Virus record (IMG/VR): IMGVR_UViG_3300020347_000003
Span: 1-64,000 of that record
From: a virus
Reading direction: 5' to 3' (one strand)
DNA: 64,000 bases
In this document: positions 30,072 through 63,836 of the stretch, in pieces
Numbering within the stretch: the first letter of the stretch is position 1
How the letters are laid out: every line of letters starts with the position of its first letter
Notes under the pieces: model-generated
The model's database searches: none
What the model was told of the DNA's origin: nothing
The model's input: the letters and a program-made list of their open reading frames with translations, nothing else
Made by a program: the position numbers and the translations under genes

Positions 30072-30377
30072 TTATTCCCTTGGAAAGCCTTCTTGTACGA
30101 ATACACCCATTGTACCGATTTGACCATCAGTAAGCTGCATGGCTTGTGGCCACATCATCTGCGACTGGGGACCTACTATCTCACCATTCTTATAGAGTGT
30201 GAGCTTGGTGATGATTTCATCAGCAGATTTGTCATAGAGAGAAGGGCCAATGCCACCCTCACCACGAGCTCCATGGCAAGCTGCACATGTATTCCACTGT
30301 TGACGAATTTCATAGAAACGATCTGCACTTGCGGGGAGTGCGAAAAGAATGCAAGTAAAAGCGATCAAATATTTCAT
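30072..30377 (-). CDS. Periplasmic class I c-type cytochrome (101 aa)
   Basis: Signal peptide MKYLIAFTCILFALPASA, then one heme-binding CAACH (C31, C34, H35) followed by GARGEGGIGPSL, and a C-terminal part with Met ligand candidates (M74, M75, M80 in SQMMWPQAM). Length and plan are those of a soluble c553/c5-like cytochrome that carries electrons to oxidases. Maturation would rely on the host Ccm system. The frame opens 5 codons earlier; ATG at 30375-30377 has GAGGA upstream. A phage-encoded cytochrome c is rare. Confidence 0.88.
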   Translation of the reverse strand: MKYLIAFTCILFALPASADRFYEIRQQWNTCAACHGARGEGGIGPSLYDKSADEIITKLTLYKNGEIVGPQSQMMWPQAMQLTDGQIGTMGVFVQEGFPRE

Positions 30378-30388
30378 AAAGGTTATCC

Positions 30389-30553
30389 TCATTTTGTATC
30401 ATAATAAATGCATGTATATGTATGGCGATTATCAGTCTCACCACATACCATACAACGGTTTTGTTGCTCTTTGTAATCAAACTGCCGGTGGTGTTTATCT
30501 TCCCACACAGCGCGTTCGGTTAATTTCTTTTGATCTTCAGTTGTATCAGTCAT
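30389..30553 (-). CDS. Small zinc-finger-like protein (54 aa)
   Basis: Found by translation between SHMT and cytochrome c. A CxxC (CMVCGETDNRHTYTCIYY) with later His and Cys could bind zinc. Start overlaps the SHMT stop region and the stop overlaps the next frame by ATGA. Function unknown. Confidence 0.6.
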   Translation of the reverse strand: MTDTTEDQKKLTERAVWEDKHHRQFDYKEQQNRCMVCGETDNRHTYTCIYYDTK

Positions 30554-32562: not shown

Positions 32563-32817
32563 CTACATATTTTTGACATTATCTTGAATTCTTGCCCAGA
32601 TATATTCTGCTTCTGGGAATTCGACCATCTCGTCCACTTGCATGTCGATATAGTCTAGCTCGTCTAAATTGGATGTGGTCACCTCTAGTTTCCACATGTC
32701 AATAATAGCCTGGCTAAATGCTGCGTTATTCAATGCTTGAGGTCCAAAAGCTCTCACGAGATCTTCCAGTGAATACTCACGTGGGGGCTGTTCATTTCTT
32801 CTATCCTTTTTGGCCAT
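32563..32817 (-). CDS. Hypothetical protein (84 aa)
   Basis: [20 protein letters not shown] then an acidic helical body (DELDYIDMQVDEMVEFPEAE). It overlaps the end of the DUF454-like gene by 17 nt. Function unknown. Confidence 0.6.
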   Translation of the reverse strand: MAKKDRRNEQPPREYSLEDLVRAFGPQALNNAAFSQAIIDMWKLEVTTSNLDELDYIDMQVDEMVEFPEAEYIWARIQDNVKNM

Positions 32818-33244
32818 GTGCAGTGTCTCCTTTCAACCAACCGATCTTTTCACCGGCTTTTACTCGACGATCATACTCTTCTACAGAACCTGGATATCTC
32901 CAAGCCCAAACAAGCCAGAAAAGCATGAATAAACCTATACTAATTGTAGCAACTAGCTTTAATTGTAAATAAAGAATCCAACTAAAACTGAATAGACAAC
33001 AAGCCAACATGACATATTTAGCTTTCGTTGGATAAATTCTTTTATTTGTCCAATTCTGTACATAAGGTCCAAATGTGGGATGTTCCCACACCCATTTTTC
33101 TAGTTTAGGTGAACTTTTACTAAAACACCATAACGCAAGAAGTAGAAAAGAAGTGGTCGGAATGCCCGGTACGAGGGCTCCTATGTAAGCCATTCCCACC
33201 GATAACAGTCCTGCTGCTCTCCACAAATTTCTACGTATGTTCAT
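32801..33244 (-). CDS. DUF454 (YbaN-like) inner-membrane protein (147 aa)
   Basis: Starts [20 protein letters not shown], followed by [20 protein letters not shown], then [15 protein letters not shown] and two more helices: the DUF454/YbaN pattern. Four membrane helices predicted. Host-derived look (this family is cellular). It overlaps the end of hemA by 14 nt, so it is likely co-translated with ALAS. Function of the family is unknown. Confidence 0.88.
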
Positions 33245-35982: not shown

Positions 35983-36567
35983 TTATTGAGATAGTTTATA
36001 GTTTGTTTGTGAATGATGCTTCTCGTCTTGTTGTACTCTATAGACCATGTCATAGAGCTTTGCATCAGATTTTAGATCATAATAATCAATTGCCAGTTGT
36101 GGGGCTGGACTGTTATCTATATCACCATGAGCAATCATTTGGAGATAACTTTCATAACTACGTACTGCCTCTTCCTCAAAATAATGTACCATTAGGTGTG
36201 CTGTTTTGGGGAAGAAAATATAAAATATTAAATAATAATGCCAGAATATACATTGTGCCAAGAGAATCAAAGTTCTCTCAACCACATTGGGCTGTGCAAT
36301 CTCAATAAAGAACATGAGATGCATTCTTTCATTTTCGGCTTCGGCTAGAAGTTCTCTAATCTGAGGACCATATCCGGTCTTCAGACTACGAAGGCTGCGA
36401 AGGTGAATCCACATACCAGCGACCATCCCTGGCACACCGGCAATTGTTTCAAGCACTACAGCCCTGTGTCCGTATCTTTTGGCAAAGAACGTATCTGCAA
36501 AGAACCGAAAGAATTTTGTTTGACCATAGGCAAATGAATGGCTCAGCCTCTCTCTTACCCCTGGCAT
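35983..36567 (-). CDS. Alternative oxidase (AOX/PTOX-type quinol oxidase, 194 aa)
   Basis: Diiron quinol oxidase that reduces oxygen to water without pumping protons. Motifs: VVLETIAGVPGMV (E40), AEAENERMHLMFF (E80, H83), HYFEEEAVRSYESY (E132) and QQDEKHHSQTNYKL (E182, H185): all six ligands are present. Core is short (194 aa) but complete. It lies between nrdA and nrdB, overlapping nrdA by 13 nt. The ATG at 36565-36567 is used; a GTG 9 nt earlier is possible. Confidence 0.94.
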   Translation of the reverse strand: MPGVRERLSHSFAYGQTKFFRFFADTFFAKRYGHRAVVLETIAGVPGMVAGMWIHLRSLRSLKTGYGPQIRELLAEAENERMHLMFFIEIAQPNVVERTLILLAQCIFWHYYLIFYIFFPKTAHLMVHYFEEEAVRSYESYLQMIAHGDIDNSPAPQLAIDYYDLKSDAKLYDMVYRVQQDEKHHSQTNYKLSQ

Positions 36568-38339
36568 GCCACACACTCGTCTTGATTATCTTCTTTGCCA
36601 TTTACAAAACTACCAGGAGTCACCAGGTTGTCTAGCTTCTCTCGCTCAACCTTTTGTGAGACGTTTTCAGCCTTGTTTGATGATTCTGTGCGAAGATAAT
36701 ATAACCCCTTGCAGCCCTGTTTCCAAGCTTGATAATGTACCTTATGGAGATAACCTTTGTCGGCTCCAGCAGGGAAGAATATATTCAAAGATTGCCCTTG
36801 GCATAAATGTTCTTGTCGATCACCAGCCAATCGAATGAGCCACAACTGATCAAGTTCAATTGCCGTTTTAAATACATCTTTTACATGATCAGACAAGAAG
36901 CGCAAATGTTGTACTGATCCACCATTCGTAATAATTGATGACCAGATTTCATCGGTATTCTGACCCAGACGATCTAGTTCTGCCTCTAGGTATGGGTTCT
37001 TGTTTAGATGTGATCCCACACGAGTACGAGACGTGAATGCATTGGCTTTCCAAGGCTCGATGCTGGGTGATGTATCTACAATCATTGAAGAATTTGCATT
37101 CGGAGCAATTGCCAACATATGTGCATTACGTCGACCCGTGCCTTTCATGTCTGGAGCCTCTCCTTTTTCTGCACCCATCTGCAGTGTAGCTTTTACGGCT
37201 CTTGTTTTCATCAACGAAAAGATCTCGTCATTCTTTTCTACTGCTTCCTGTGAAGCGAATGGGATCATGTTCTTTTGAAAGTATGAGTGCAGACCCATAG
37301 CCCCAAGACCTAGTGATCTCTCACGCTGTGCACTGAATCGAGCTCGGTGAATTTCATCACCAGCATGATCAATGAAAAACTGCAGTACATTGTCAAGATA
37401 GACTATAAGGTCTTCGATCATTTGCGAATTTTTCCAATCGTCGTATCTCTCCACATTGACCGAAGATAGACAACACACAGCAGTACGATCTTCACTGGTC
37501 ACGAGGTGAATTTCATTACATAGATTAGAACCACGAATCTTCAGGCCGAGATCTTGTTGTGATTGCGGTAGCGCTCTATTTGCAGTATCGATAAAGTTTA
37601 GGTAAGGTTCACCTGTTCGATATCGAGTTTCTAATAGATGTTCCCACAATTTACGAGCCTTGGTTGTATCTCTCACTGAATCATCATCGGGATCAATCAA
37701 ATCCCAATCAGCTCCGGCTTCAACAGCTTCCATGAACTTATCAGTTATATTCACAGCGTGATGTAGGTTGAGATTCTTACGATTCACATCACCAGTTGGA
37801 ATTCTCATGTTTGCAAATTCAATGATGTCTGGATGGTCACAGTCGATATAGGCTGCATAAGATCCCTTTCGAGTTCTACCTTGACGATACGCAACCATAT
37901 CTGCATCAACCGTATGTAGAAATGGCATCGGACCAGGAGCCTTCTTTGATACTGCTCGAATATCAGACCAATGACCACCGACACCACCACCCTTGACCGA
38001 CAGCCACCGAAGCTCGGCACTATGGTCAATCAGACCCTCTAGTGAATCTGGTACGTAAGTAAGAAAACACGAAATGGGTAACGCCTTTACAGGCTCACCT
38101 TCGATAGGAGCGTTTGAGAGAACTGGTGAAGCAAACATAAACCAACCTTTCGAAACGTAATCATAAATGCGTTGTGCAAGTTCTAAATCACCATAGGAAT
38201 AAGCCACTGCCGCGCGTGCAAATGCTTGTTGTGGAGTCTTCTCGTCTTCACGGCAGTAATAATCTTTCAATAACTTTGCTGACTGCTCCGATAGCAGTCT
38301 ATTTCTTCTATTATCAATTCGGATACCTAGGTGATCCAT
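36555..38339 (-). CDS. nrdA: Ribonucleotide reductase alpha subunit NrdA (594 aa)
   Basis: Class I large subunit: FASPVLSNAP, ISCFLTYVPDSLEG, GGGVGGHWSDIR, GSNLCNEIHLVTSEDRTAVC (active-site Cys), and late LAIAPNANSSMIVDTSPSIE and a C-terminal ECVAC pair that shuttles electrons. It starts directly in the catalytic domain, with no ATP-cone at the N-terminus, so dATP shutdown of the ATP-cone type is not expected. At 594 aa it is shorter than E. coli NrdA (761). Confidence 0.96.
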   Translation of the reverse strand: MDHLGIRIDNRRNRLLSEQSAKLLKDYYCREDEKTPQQAFARAAVAYSYGDLELAQRIYDYVSKGWFMFASPVLSNAPIEGEPVKALPISCFLTYVPDSLEGLIDHSAELRWLSVKGGGVGGHWSDIRAVSKKAPGPMPFLHTVDADMVAYRQGRTRKGSYAAYIDCDHPDIIEFANMRIPTGDVNRKNLNLHHAVNITDKFMEAVEAGADWDLIDPDDDSVRDTTKARKLWEHLLETRYRTGEPYLNFIDTANRALPQSQQDLGLKIRGSNLCNEIHLVTSEDRTAVCCLSSVNVERYDDWKNSQMIEDLIVYLDNVLQFFIDHAGDEIHRARFSAQRERSLGLGAMGLHSYFQKNMIPFASQEAVEKNDEIFSLMKTRAVKATLQMGAEKGEAPDMKGTGRRNAHMLAIAPNANSSMIVDTSPSIEPWKANAFTSRTRVGSHLNKNPYLEAELDRLGQNTDEIWSSIITNGGSVQHLRFLSDHVKDVFKTAIELDQLWLIRLAGDRQEHLCQGQSLNIFFPAGADKGYLHKVHYQAWKQGCKGLYYLRTESSNKAENVSQKVEREKLDNLVTPGSFVNGKEDNQDECVACQG

Positions 38340-60992: not shown

Positions 60993-61595
60993 TCAAATAA
61001 AGTGTTCGCGGACAATGTCTTTGAACCTCTTTTCATCAATAGCCAGAAAGGGTCTATACTTTCTAGCAGTTCTTATTATATCACGCGAAACTATTTTGTC
61101 AACCAATATTTTGTCCCAATAACCAAAAATATTTGCGAAATGAACTAATAGAGTAAAAGTCTCTAATGAGATCTGTTTCCGCAGATACGTCGTCATCAAA
61201 ATAGGATGTTGACCATCGCGTGATACAAAATTAGCCTGATAACTATCATCAAGCTGTTTCAGATCAGACTTGAAAATGTAAGAGAGTGACTCTTGTTTTC
61301 GTTTCCAATCTACATACACTTGTTCACCTTCGTGTTCAAGTATATCCTTTATCCAGCAGTTGGGTTTCACCAACATATTGGACATAATTCTATTGATGTA
61401 ATCCTCTTTTTGTGCCAGTTTGGCAAAGAAGAATGCATCGTTTCGGGCTCTAAATGAATCCATTGAAGCCCTAACTTTACCATGGTATTTATGAAAATCG
61501 TAACCGTCTGTTGTAAAATGCTTCTTTAGAGCAAGATATTTGACGTAGGCCTCAAATGAGGCTTCATTCACATAGGTCGGTGATTGTAGGCTCAT
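60993..61595 (-). CDS. 59: gp59 helicase loader (200 aa)
   Basis: VKYLALKKHFTTDGYDFHKY, HGKVRASMDSFRARNDAFFF and later VHFANIFGYWDKIL resemble T4 gp59, the all-helical loader of gp41 onto gp32-covered DNA. Size is close to T4 gp59 (217). Order 33-59-32 matches T4. Overlaps the start region of gp33 downstream end by 32 nt. Confidence 0.9.
   Translation of the reverse strand: MSLQSPTYVNEASFEAYVKYLALKKHFTTDGYDFHKYHGKVRASMDSFRARNDAFFFAKLAQKEDYINRIMSNMLVKPNCWIKDILEHEGEQVYVDWKRKQESLSYIFKSDLKQLDDSYQANFVSRDGQHPILMTTYLRKQISLETFTLLVHFANIFGYWDKILVDKIVSRDIIRTARKYRPFLAIDEKRFKDIVREHFI
61075..61102 (-). promoter_or_regulatory. Intragenic promoter in gene 59 (TTGACA-16-TATAAT)
   Basis: -35 TTGACA at 61097-61102, -10 TATAAT at 61075-61080, spacer 16. 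Gives gp32 its own promoter about 130 nt upstream of the ATG. Confidence 0.7.
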
Positions 61596-61803
61596 CTTGT
61601 TTTACCATTCTCAAATCAATAGCTTCAGTTCTTACTTTTTCTTTCAATATCGACGACTTCTTAACGATGTCAGCGATAGATTCGATCTCAAGATTGTTTT
61701 TCTCGGCGTAGTGTACGAGAGCATCGATGTACGGAACACCACGCGCAATCATGTTTGAGATGTCATGGTGGATCTTTTCGGGGGTCATTTTCACAACCGA
61801 CAT
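61564..61803 (-). CDS. 33: gp33 late-transcription co-activator (79 aa)
   Basis: MSVVKMTPEKIHHDISNMIA, then GVPYIDALVHYAEKNNLEIE, SIADIVKKSSILKEKVRTEA: the conserved gp33 helix pattern of marine T4-like phages. gp33 bridges RNA polymerase and the sliding clamp at late promoters, in keeping with the TATAAATA boxes seen here. The frame is open to 61899, but the promoter at 61832-61860 rules out the longer form; ATG at 61801-61803 has GGAGG. Confidence 0.88.
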   Translation of the reverse strand: MSVVKMTPEKIHHDISNMIARGVPYIDALVHYAEKNNLEIESIADIVKKSSILKEKVRTEAIDLRMVKQDEPTITDLCE

Positions 61804-61831
61804 TAATACCTCCTTGATTTTTGAAGTGACC

Positions 61832-61860
61832 ATTATATCAGGACATGCATACAATGTCAA
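61832..61860 (-). promoter_or_regulatory. sigma70 promoter (TTGACA-17-TATAAT, perfect)
   Basis: -35 at 61855-61860, -10 at 61832-61837, spacer 17. Drives 33-59-32. Confidence 0.92.
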
Positions 61861-61874
61861 CCAATTCCGCAAAT

Positions 61875-61909
61875 AAAAAAACGGCCTGAACATTCTCACA
61901 TTCAGACCG
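61875..61909 (-). terminator. Rho-independent terminator overlapping a promoter start site
   Basis: On the minus strand CGGTCTGAA (61909-61901) pairs with TTCAGGCCG (61890-61882), one G-U pair, followed by TTTTTTT at 61881-61875. It stops transcripts from 62.1 kb. The -10 of the 61912-61940 promoter touches its upstream edge. Confidence 0.88.
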
Positions 61910-61911
61910 CC

Positions 61912-61940
61912 ATTATATCAAAGTGCTATCACTCTGTCAA
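61912..61940 (-). promoter_or_regulatory. sigma70 promoter (TTGACA-17-TATAAT, perfect) at a terminator
   Basis: -35 at 61935-61940, -10 at 61912-61917, spacer 17. The expected start near 61905 lies inside the 5' arm of the terminator hairpin. Confidence 0.85.
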
Positions 61941-61947
61941 GGGTTAT

Positions 61948-62468: not shown

Positions 62469-63173
62469 TTAGTCAACTGGATATGGCTTTAACTCTTCGA
62501 ACAGTACATCATTCACATATTGATTTATTTTATCTTCGTCCAGGTTCATTGCCCTGAGCGAATTCCACAGCTGTTTATTCTTCTTCTGATTGATGCAATA
62601 GTTATTGTGCCAATGAATATGATCACCACCATTTGCCCAGAAGTTTTCGTGTTCAATCTGCTGGAGATAGTAGGCAATCAATTTTAATGCAACTTCACAA
62701 AACTGCTCTGTCTCTTCGCCCTCACGAACATTTCCTGCTGCAACCATATGAGGTGAAAATATCTCTTTGGCCCAGTCGGGTAACTCTCGTTCTTTCTTCC
62801 ACACCAGATCTCTGGTAGCAAGACCAAAGGTAGTAATAATCGGATGTGTTTCATCGGACACGGGAGAAAAGTCAAAAAAGGAGCCACTGATCTTGTTAGG
62901 TCCTGCAACAACATCTAGCCCCAAAATGGGGTAATGCATTAAATTGCTTGGGAAGATGTTAATGTGAATCAACCACAGTTTTGGTTTGCCTTCAATCGGC
63001 TCTATTATTTTTAGGTGTGCCTTACGAATAGGACCTGAGGTCCAAAACAGATCTGTCCAACCTTCAAACTCATTGATATGTCTTTCATTATCAAATCGGT
63101 CTAGGTGGCTATCGAAAAGGTTGATAATTTTGTCCGACAGCTCTCGTAACGTATTCAGTAGTGGTGTGTCCAT
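62469..63173 (-). CDS. pcyX: Ferredoxin-dependent bilin reductase (PcyX/PebS/PcyA family, 234 aa)
   Basis: Reduces biliverdin to a coloured phycobilin with electrons from ferredoxin. Family pattern: WTDLFWTSGPIRKAHLKIIE, LIHINIFPSNLMHYPILGLD, VVAGPNKISGSFFDFSPVSD with the conserved catalytic-type Asp D101, and a C-terminal YCINQKKNKQLWNSLRAMN segment. Length is right (230-250 aa). It follows heme oxygenase by 14 nt. PcyX is my preferred subgroup because the phage also has ALAS and no photosystem genes are seen; PebS or PcyA cannot be excluded by eye. Confidence 0.88.
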   Translation of the reverse strand: MDTPLLNTLRELSDKIINLFDSHLDRFDNERHINEFEGWTDLFWTSGPIRKAHLKIIEPIEGKPKLWLIHINIFPSNLMHYPILGLDVVAGPNKISGSFFDFSPVSDETHPIITTFGLATRDLVWKKERELPDWAKEIFSPHMVAAGNVREGEETEQFCEVALKLIAYYLQQIEHENFWANGGDHIHWHNNYCINQKKNKQLWNSLRAMNLDEDKINQYVNDVLFEELKPYPVD

Positions 63174-63187
63174 AATATATTCCGTGG

Positions 63188-63736
63188 TTAATCAGTTGTG
63201 GCGAAAAGTGTGTCCAACTCTTCAAATAATTTTGTTGCGTATTGAAAGCAAATAATTGCTTCGTCGACCATATCGTCATACAGTAACTCTCGAATACCAG
63301 AAATCAACTCTCGTCGATTCTCAAATTCATACATTGAACCCGAACCTGGTACTCTCTTTTTGATAATCTGACCACCGTGCATATCACCGAAGTGTCTGAC
63401 ATAAAGGTGAGCCATTAGATCGTCATTATCTTCCAGATTTAAAATGTGATCAATGTATTCATCAACCGATCTTAAATTTTCAGAGATCCATGTAAGATTA
63501 TAAGACTCTTCCAATTCACACAAATCTGCCAAGATTTTCTCTGCTCTAAAAACACCGGTCAGTTCCTGTGCCAGATGAACACGCTCTTCAAGTACCCGGT
63601 ATATTTCATATTGAGACTTCAAATAATACTGATATGCAACTGGAGTAATATCCCCACCAATCAGCATTCCGGCGAACCTTGATTGTTCGGCCATATCGTG
63701 GTGTTTCTGAGTTAGTTCTTTTAGACTAGTAGCCAT
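63188..63736 (-). CDS. ho1: Heme oxygenase (182 aa)
   Basis: Opens heme to biliverdin IX-alpha, CO and iron. LKELTQKHHDMAEQSRFAGM carries the proximal His, YQYYLKSQYEIYRVLEERVH follows, and RHFGDMHGGQIIKKRVPGSG is the distal GDxxGGQ helix. Shorter than cyanobacterial HO1 (about 240 aa) mainly at the C-terminus. The open frame extends to 63820; ATG at 63734-63736 with GAGGAG upstream gives the usual N-terminus. A late box lies at 63823-63830. Confidence 0.95.
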   Translation of the reverse strand: MATSLKELTQKHHDMAEQSRFAGMLIGGDITPVAYQYYLKSQYEIYRVLEERVHLAQELTGVFRAEKILADLCELEESYNLTWISENLRSVDEYIDHILNLEDNDDLMAHLYVRHFGDMHGGQIIKKRVPGSGSMYEFENRRELISGIRELLYDDMVDEAIICFQYATKLFEELDTLFATTD

Positions 63737-63822: not shown

Positions 63823-63830
63823 TATTTATA
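63823..63830 (-). promoter_or_regulatory. T4-type late promoter box TATAAATA (leftward)
   Basis: Exact TATAAATA on the minus strand, upstream of heme oxygenase (about 87 nt to the ATG). It shares two bases with the rightward box at 63829-63836. Confidence 0.75.
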
Positions 63831-63836
63831 TAAATA
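63829..63836 (+). promoter_or_regulatory. T4-type late promoter box TATAAATA (rightward)
   Basis: Exact TATAAATA on the plus strand, 30 nt before the ATG at 63867. First rightward promoter in the window. Confidence 0.8.

Follow-up and report, generated by a model that had tools for sequence, protein, structure and literature searches.

What use a virus of a heterotrophic bacterium might have for genes that turn heme into bilin is an acknowledged open question, and the locus described here raises it again. We analysed 64 kb (the window) of a 72,114-bp IMG/VR virus record (G000), in which a heme oxygenase gene (hemO) is followed by a gene for a ferredoxin-dependent bilin reductase (FDBR). The preliminary description of this DNA implied that such a pair was a surprise in a phage of this kind, a view that has to be given up, since phage hemO-pcyX cassettes with a 5-aminolevulinate synthase (AlaS) and heterotrophic hosts are already published (PMC11480375) and the isolated pelagiphage Mosig carries the pair. 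We favour, with a probability of roughly 0.6, a late auxiliary metabolic operon in a T4-superfamily phage of an alphaproteobacterium that would take heme to a reduced bilin, with AlaS supplying precursor.

The gene pair and the phage that carries it

Both members of the pair (Table 1) are complete and as first described, a heme oxygenase and a reductase downstream of it on the same strand, the 14-nt gap lying between the hemO stop codon, which ends at 63188, and the FDBR start codon at 63173. Membership of the heme oxygenase family is indicated by the PF01126 score, a His at the proximal-ligand position and the GDxxGG distal helix, which here reads GDMHGGQ (residues 117-123). Heme oxygenases open heme to biliverdin IXalpha, freeing one iron per heme and also yielding CO. 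For the reductase, AlphaFold with 30 aligned relatives gave a model of FDBR fold (pLDDT 87), Foldseek returned PcyA and PcyX as top hits (probability 1.00), and the best PDB match was PcyX_EBK42635 (5owg, E 2.7e-38) with PcyA far behind (~1e-12). Relative to close relatives at 80-82% identity, dN/dS was ~0.07-0.10 for FDBR and 0.03 for the heme oxygenase, with some synonymous distances saturated and the comparison with locus L003 (0.10 and 0.03, respectively) the sounder one; these values reveal purifying selection, and we therefore regard both genes as kept for function.

Table 1. Features of the window and of the hemO-FDBR locus.
Feature	Position	Strand	Basis or remark
FDBR, Lys type, 234 aa	62469..63173	-	PF05996, E 6.4e-17
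hemO, heme oxygenase, 182 aa	63191..63736 (stop codon reaching 63188)	-	PF01126, E 2.4e-18
T4-type late promoter octamer TATAAATA	63823..63830	-	consensus match, ~87 nt upstream of hemO ATG
14-bp palindrome TATTTATATAAATA	63823-63836		contains the octamer; also faces a divergent lipase-like gene
valaS, phage AlaS	33231..34502	-	TIGR01821, 570 bits (cut-off 339)
DUF454 gene	32801-33244	-	directly downstream of AlaS
Alternative oxidase (AOX)	35983..36576	-	PF01786, E 6.4e-65; possible heme-independent respiration
Small cytochrome-c-like ORF	30072..30392	-	CAACH motif; no PHROG match
Sigma-70 promoter, TTGACA-17-TATAAT, extended TG	61912-61940	-	perfect; upstream of ORF 61564-61899; adjoins TATAAATA at 61945

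AlaS and AOX, both named in the preliminary description, are borne out by their family scores, and the cytochrome c that it also listed is present as a small ORF for which the motif is the sole basis. The window holds no Rfam element other than one tRNA.

Phage relationships were assessed with the help of a second record, G002 (169,742 bp, completeness uncertain), which is syntenic with the window at a median protein identity of 80% across 54 shared ORFs. Its capsid (gp23) and terminase (gp17) proteins had their highest scores with phiM12/phiN3-group phages of Sinorhizobium, with Methylophilales phages also near the top for the capsid, and gp41 of the window matched Caulobacter phage Cr30, a Stenotrophomonas phage and Sinorhizobium phages. 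UvsX had its best match in a phage recorded on Synechococcus elongatus and its second in Sinorhizobium phages. Because of these matches, a T4-like phage with an alphaproteobacterial host is likely, in keeping with the proteobacterial host proposed at the outset: the nearest phages by gp23, gp17 and gp41 are those of alphaproteobacteria and other proteobacteria. Neither G000 nor the syntenic 170-kb G002 gave a match to Photo_RC, phycobiliprotein, GAF or copper-binding (plastocyanin) families. The suggested search for bilin-binding proteins, made on the phage side with GAF and phycobiliprotein families, thus found none in these two records, nor was a bilin-binding partner found among the phage records searched; among searched records, only Mosig has a ferredoxin gene. 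Two AlaS-bearing relatives (G017 and G019, loci L148 and L149) carry a phage copper protein that is pseudoazurin-like and that we rejected as plastocyanin: the best PDB match of the L149 copy was the pseudoazurin 1bqk (1.8e-22), and the other copy is similar in sequence character.

The lysine-type reductase clade

A scan of viral contigs yielded 80 FDBR loci, and in nearly all that are long enough hemO adjoins FDBR or sits close upstream of it, while those with no hemO match mostly end short upstream. A maximum-likelihood tree was built from 83 rows covering cyanobacterial, alphaproteobacterial, cyanophage and phage sequences, and in it the window FDBR fell in a 36-row clade (support 100/98). 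The sister group of this clade holds Asp-type sequences, Mosig and 5owg among them, together with a set of Ser type and a single sequence of Glu type (L074); clade and sister group form one phage clade (99/97). PebS, PebA and PebB stand apart from the window FDBR with 99/95 support, PebS on a long branch. The tree proposed in the preliminary description therefore puts the reductase outside the cyanophage PcyA and PebS branches, and its view that the phage is not a cyanobacterial one stands on this placement and on the lack of photosynthesis-gene matches in G000 and G002.

A bacterial origin of the Lys type was also considered and rejected, as the Lys-type hits in bacterial genomes were limited to MAG contigs of Rhodobacteraceae Water_Bin34 and Bacteroidetes UBA4009, probably binned phage; three such contigs are in a single bin and have titles giving very uneven coverage. 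Wegner et al. (PMC11480375) note a phage-like AlaS in a sponge bin that is Rhodobacter-like.

Sequence comparison placed K55, H70 and D87 of the window FDBR at the positions of PcyA E76, H88 and D105, such that the catalytic Asp-His pair (D87 and H70) is kept and is invariant in the alignment. The D101 emphasized earlier is likewise invariant across the viral and cyanophage alignment, but the equivalent of catalytic Asp105 is D87. The remaining position departs from both known states: where PcyA of alphaproteobacteria, cyanobacteria and cyanophages has Glu76 and PcyX has Asp55, Lys stands in 36 of 36 rows of the window clade, and the same column is Asp in 12 rows and Ser in 6. The window enzyme thus has neither the PcyX-specific Asp55 nor the full Asp-His-Glu76 triad of PcyA. 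In the 5owg chain, residue 63 corresponds to Asp55 under an assumed 8-residue tag offset, and Asp94 likewise to Asp86, which we take to be the catalytic position. The Lys column was included in the tree data and is hence not independent of the clade, though as 1 of 239 columns it is unlikely to carry it, and further columns also set the Lys and Asp clades apart.

Ledermann, 2018 (FEBS J), reportedly found no catalytic role for the Asp that PcyX has in place of Glu, and no conversion to a PcyA when Glu was restored; if so, Lys at this column need not alter the product. Glu76, for its part, has been reported to be PcyA-specific and required for 18-vinyl reduction (PMC10151467), and neither phylogeny nor structure predicts FDBR products reliably (PMC13193486). 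Since the window enzyme keeps the His-Asp pair of PcyX and PcyA and has Lys for Glu76, phycoerythrobilin is its most likely predicted product, at about even odds, with phytochromobilin a considerably weaker candidate, phycocyanobilin weaker again and some other bilin likewise among the less likely.

Several variant loci were seen alongside these. The Ser-type group within the phage clade (L075-L082), for whose active-site state no description was found in the literature, has hemO overlapping the FDBR ORF. One Lys-type subclade (L026, L027, L033, L039, L041, L044, L048, L050, L051, L088 and L090) has a conserved, very basic ORF of ~55-60 aa (e.g., MQDDALDTVNLKPKARAERMSRSRTARNRRS...) between hemO and FDBR, often with a porin-like ORF ahead of hemO. 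Finally, L093, a 335-kb contig labelled Neomarinimicrobiota that is either a bacterial genome or a large phage, has a nitrilase-like ORF between an Asp-type PcyX and hemO.

Promoter motifs, timing and AlaS

The octamer TATAAATA is the T4 late promoter consensus, and the window holds 9 copies where 3.4 are expected, 8 of them on the minus (main coding) strand. Among unique loci in which 110 nt or more precede hemO (related loci not being independent), the octamer stands ahead of hemO in 22 of 28 from the Lys clade, against 0.53 expected from local density, and in 1 of 15 Asp-, Glu- or Ser-type loci. Its distance from hemO varies by subclade (about -95, -47 and -31 to -52). The same octamer stands 26-78 nt upstream of many structural-region ORFs of G002, including those for the major head protein and tail sheath, and also ahead of a helicase gene; six phage AlaS genes were checked over the 400 nt that precede them, and none has the octamer there. 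From this motif we infer that hemO and FDBR are expressed late in infection. In the Asp-type pelagiphage-like loci the genes that directly follow the pair are gp13, gp14, gp3, gp16 and gp17, a setting that suggests late expression of these pairs as well. Neither the late promoter at hemO-FDBR nor its lack at AlaS is described in the literature main texts searched, and the contrast between the two narrows the timing of bilin making and argues against a purely early role in host metabolism.

AlaS lies 28 kb from the pair and is its probable upstream pathway partner. It was found in six virus records of the Lys clade (G000, G002, G010, G011, G017 and G019), which include the largest two, of 169 and 201 kb, and none was found in Mosig, an Asp-type phage whose genome is complete; most remaining records are short fragments in which absence is uninformative. 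In the window enzyme the position of R. capsulatus H342 is Lys and the C-terminal Cys is absent, and missing heme-feedback residues are reported for many phage AlaS by Wegner et al. (PMC11480375). Because it is distant from hemO-FDBR and apparently not co-regulated with it, AlaS may instead serve respiration.

Possible uses for a bilin and comparison with known systems

In the late-operon reading, HemO would convert heme to biliverdin IXalpha, the Lys-type FDBR would reduce this to a phytobilin with electrons from host ferredoxin, and a phage AlaS without heme-feedback residues would raise the supply of tetrapyrrole precursor. Candidate acceptors would be a host phytochrome-type receptor or another binding protein, or the bilin could serve free as an antioxidant. 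The preliminary description had listed iron release beside photoreceptor chromophore, CO and antioxidant; the latter three stand as candidates, and iron release is weakened since new heme made through AlaS takes up the iron that heme oxygenase frees. As AlaS and HemO together give no net iron gain, we infer that the bilin, or CO, rather than iron would be the product of the gene set.

Heme turnover nonetheless has a place as a rival, if an unlikely one, in which the pair would release iron and remove biliverdin and the reduced bilin would be a disposal product. The iron freed per heme is established chemistry, and iron release has been proposed for marine phages, many of whose source waters are nutrient-poor (PMC11480375), but beyond the AlaS-fed synthesis that would use this iron up, iron release needs no FDBR, yet almost every locus retains FDBR together with hemO, and FDBR is under purifying selection. 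A further reading that we consider unlikely is that the Lys-type enzymes are a third product class of phage FDBR, yielding a bilin that neither PcyX nor PcyA makes, late and AlaS-fed in phages of heterotrophic alphaproteobacteria, for deliberate use in or by the non-photosynthetic virocell or virions.

It is rather improbable that the FDBR is functionally a PcyA making phycocyanobilin for a host phytochrome, as the enzyme of freshwater phage CB_2, also without Asp55, does in vitro, where its product assembles with Cph1 (PMC11480375): the required Glu76 (PMC10151467) is Lys here, and the Lys clade is sister to PcyX and not to alphaproteobacterial PcyA. Very improbable is a late shut-down of heme-based host respiration through heme destruction and CO, with the heme-free phage AOX sustaining electron flow; heme oxygenase chemistry and the AOX genes of G000 and its close relative G002 would fit, but the other Lys-clade records searched lack AOX, and the reductase and AlaS would be left unexplained. 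An ordinary cyanophage light-harvesting set of PebS or cyanophage PcyA type, which the T4-like phage, the UvsX best hit and an isolate collection whose phage FDBRs are otherwise nearly all from cyanophages might have suggested, was rejected as scarcely credible given the FDBR tree position, the lack of Photo_RC, phycobiliprotein and plastocyanin matches in G000 and G002 and the top scores of gp23 and gp17 against Sinorhizobium phages.

Returning to the late-operon reading, what is new relative to the literature main texts is apparently the clade of Lys-type enzymes, the late promoter of the pair and the presence of AlaS in six Lys-clade records; the pairs, AlaS cassettes and some activities are already known. 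The Lys active-site state is not described in those texts, though the 'PcyX' set of Wegner et al. may include Lys-type sequences. As a defined, testable FDBR set with an altered active-site residue, the clade should be useful for work on the determinants of product choice.

Among known systems, the window locus resembles phage PcyX/hemO (Ledermann et al. 2016; Mosig, 5owg) in having an FDBR of the PcyA/PcyX lineage beside hemO, in a non-cyanophage T4-like phage, with the His-Asp pair kept and with 35-38% identity between the window enzyme and Asp-type viral sequences. It differs in the change of Asp55 to Lys and in its separate, well-supported sister clade, and in having a late promoter of its own, where pairs of the pelagiphage type are found immediately upstream of neck and terminase genes; Lys-clade records also occur with AlaS, where Mosig has ferrochelatase instead. 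Part of Wegner et al. 2024 (PMC11480375, citing Ledermann 2016) describes hemO-pcyX cassettes outside cyanophages, often accompanied by a phage AlaS, with heterotrophic alphaproteobacteria as the hosts, and the same paper gives Asp-type PcyX as making phycoerythrobilin and the HemO of a related phage as active, its discussion leaving the purpose of the bilin unsettled. The window shares with the hemO-pcyA/X-valaS cassette that this paper describes in aquatic phages, CB_2 among them, the same three enzymes, in a 'broken cassette' with hemO and FDBR together and AlaS elsewhere, as well as an AlaS without heme-feedback residues and a suspected alphaproteobacterial host, but the FDBR assayed there is a PcyA. 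The alphaproteobacterial PcyA of the AX clade (Falsiroseomonas, Bradyrhizobium ORS278) is the nearest bacterial lineage in the tree, through Falsiroseomonas and Acetobacteraceae sequences, and differs in having Glu at the Glu76 position and in sharing 25-33% identity with the window enzyme. Cyanophage PebS and PcyA are phage-borne FDBRs too, but they occupy separate branches and belong to phages with cyanobacterial hosts.
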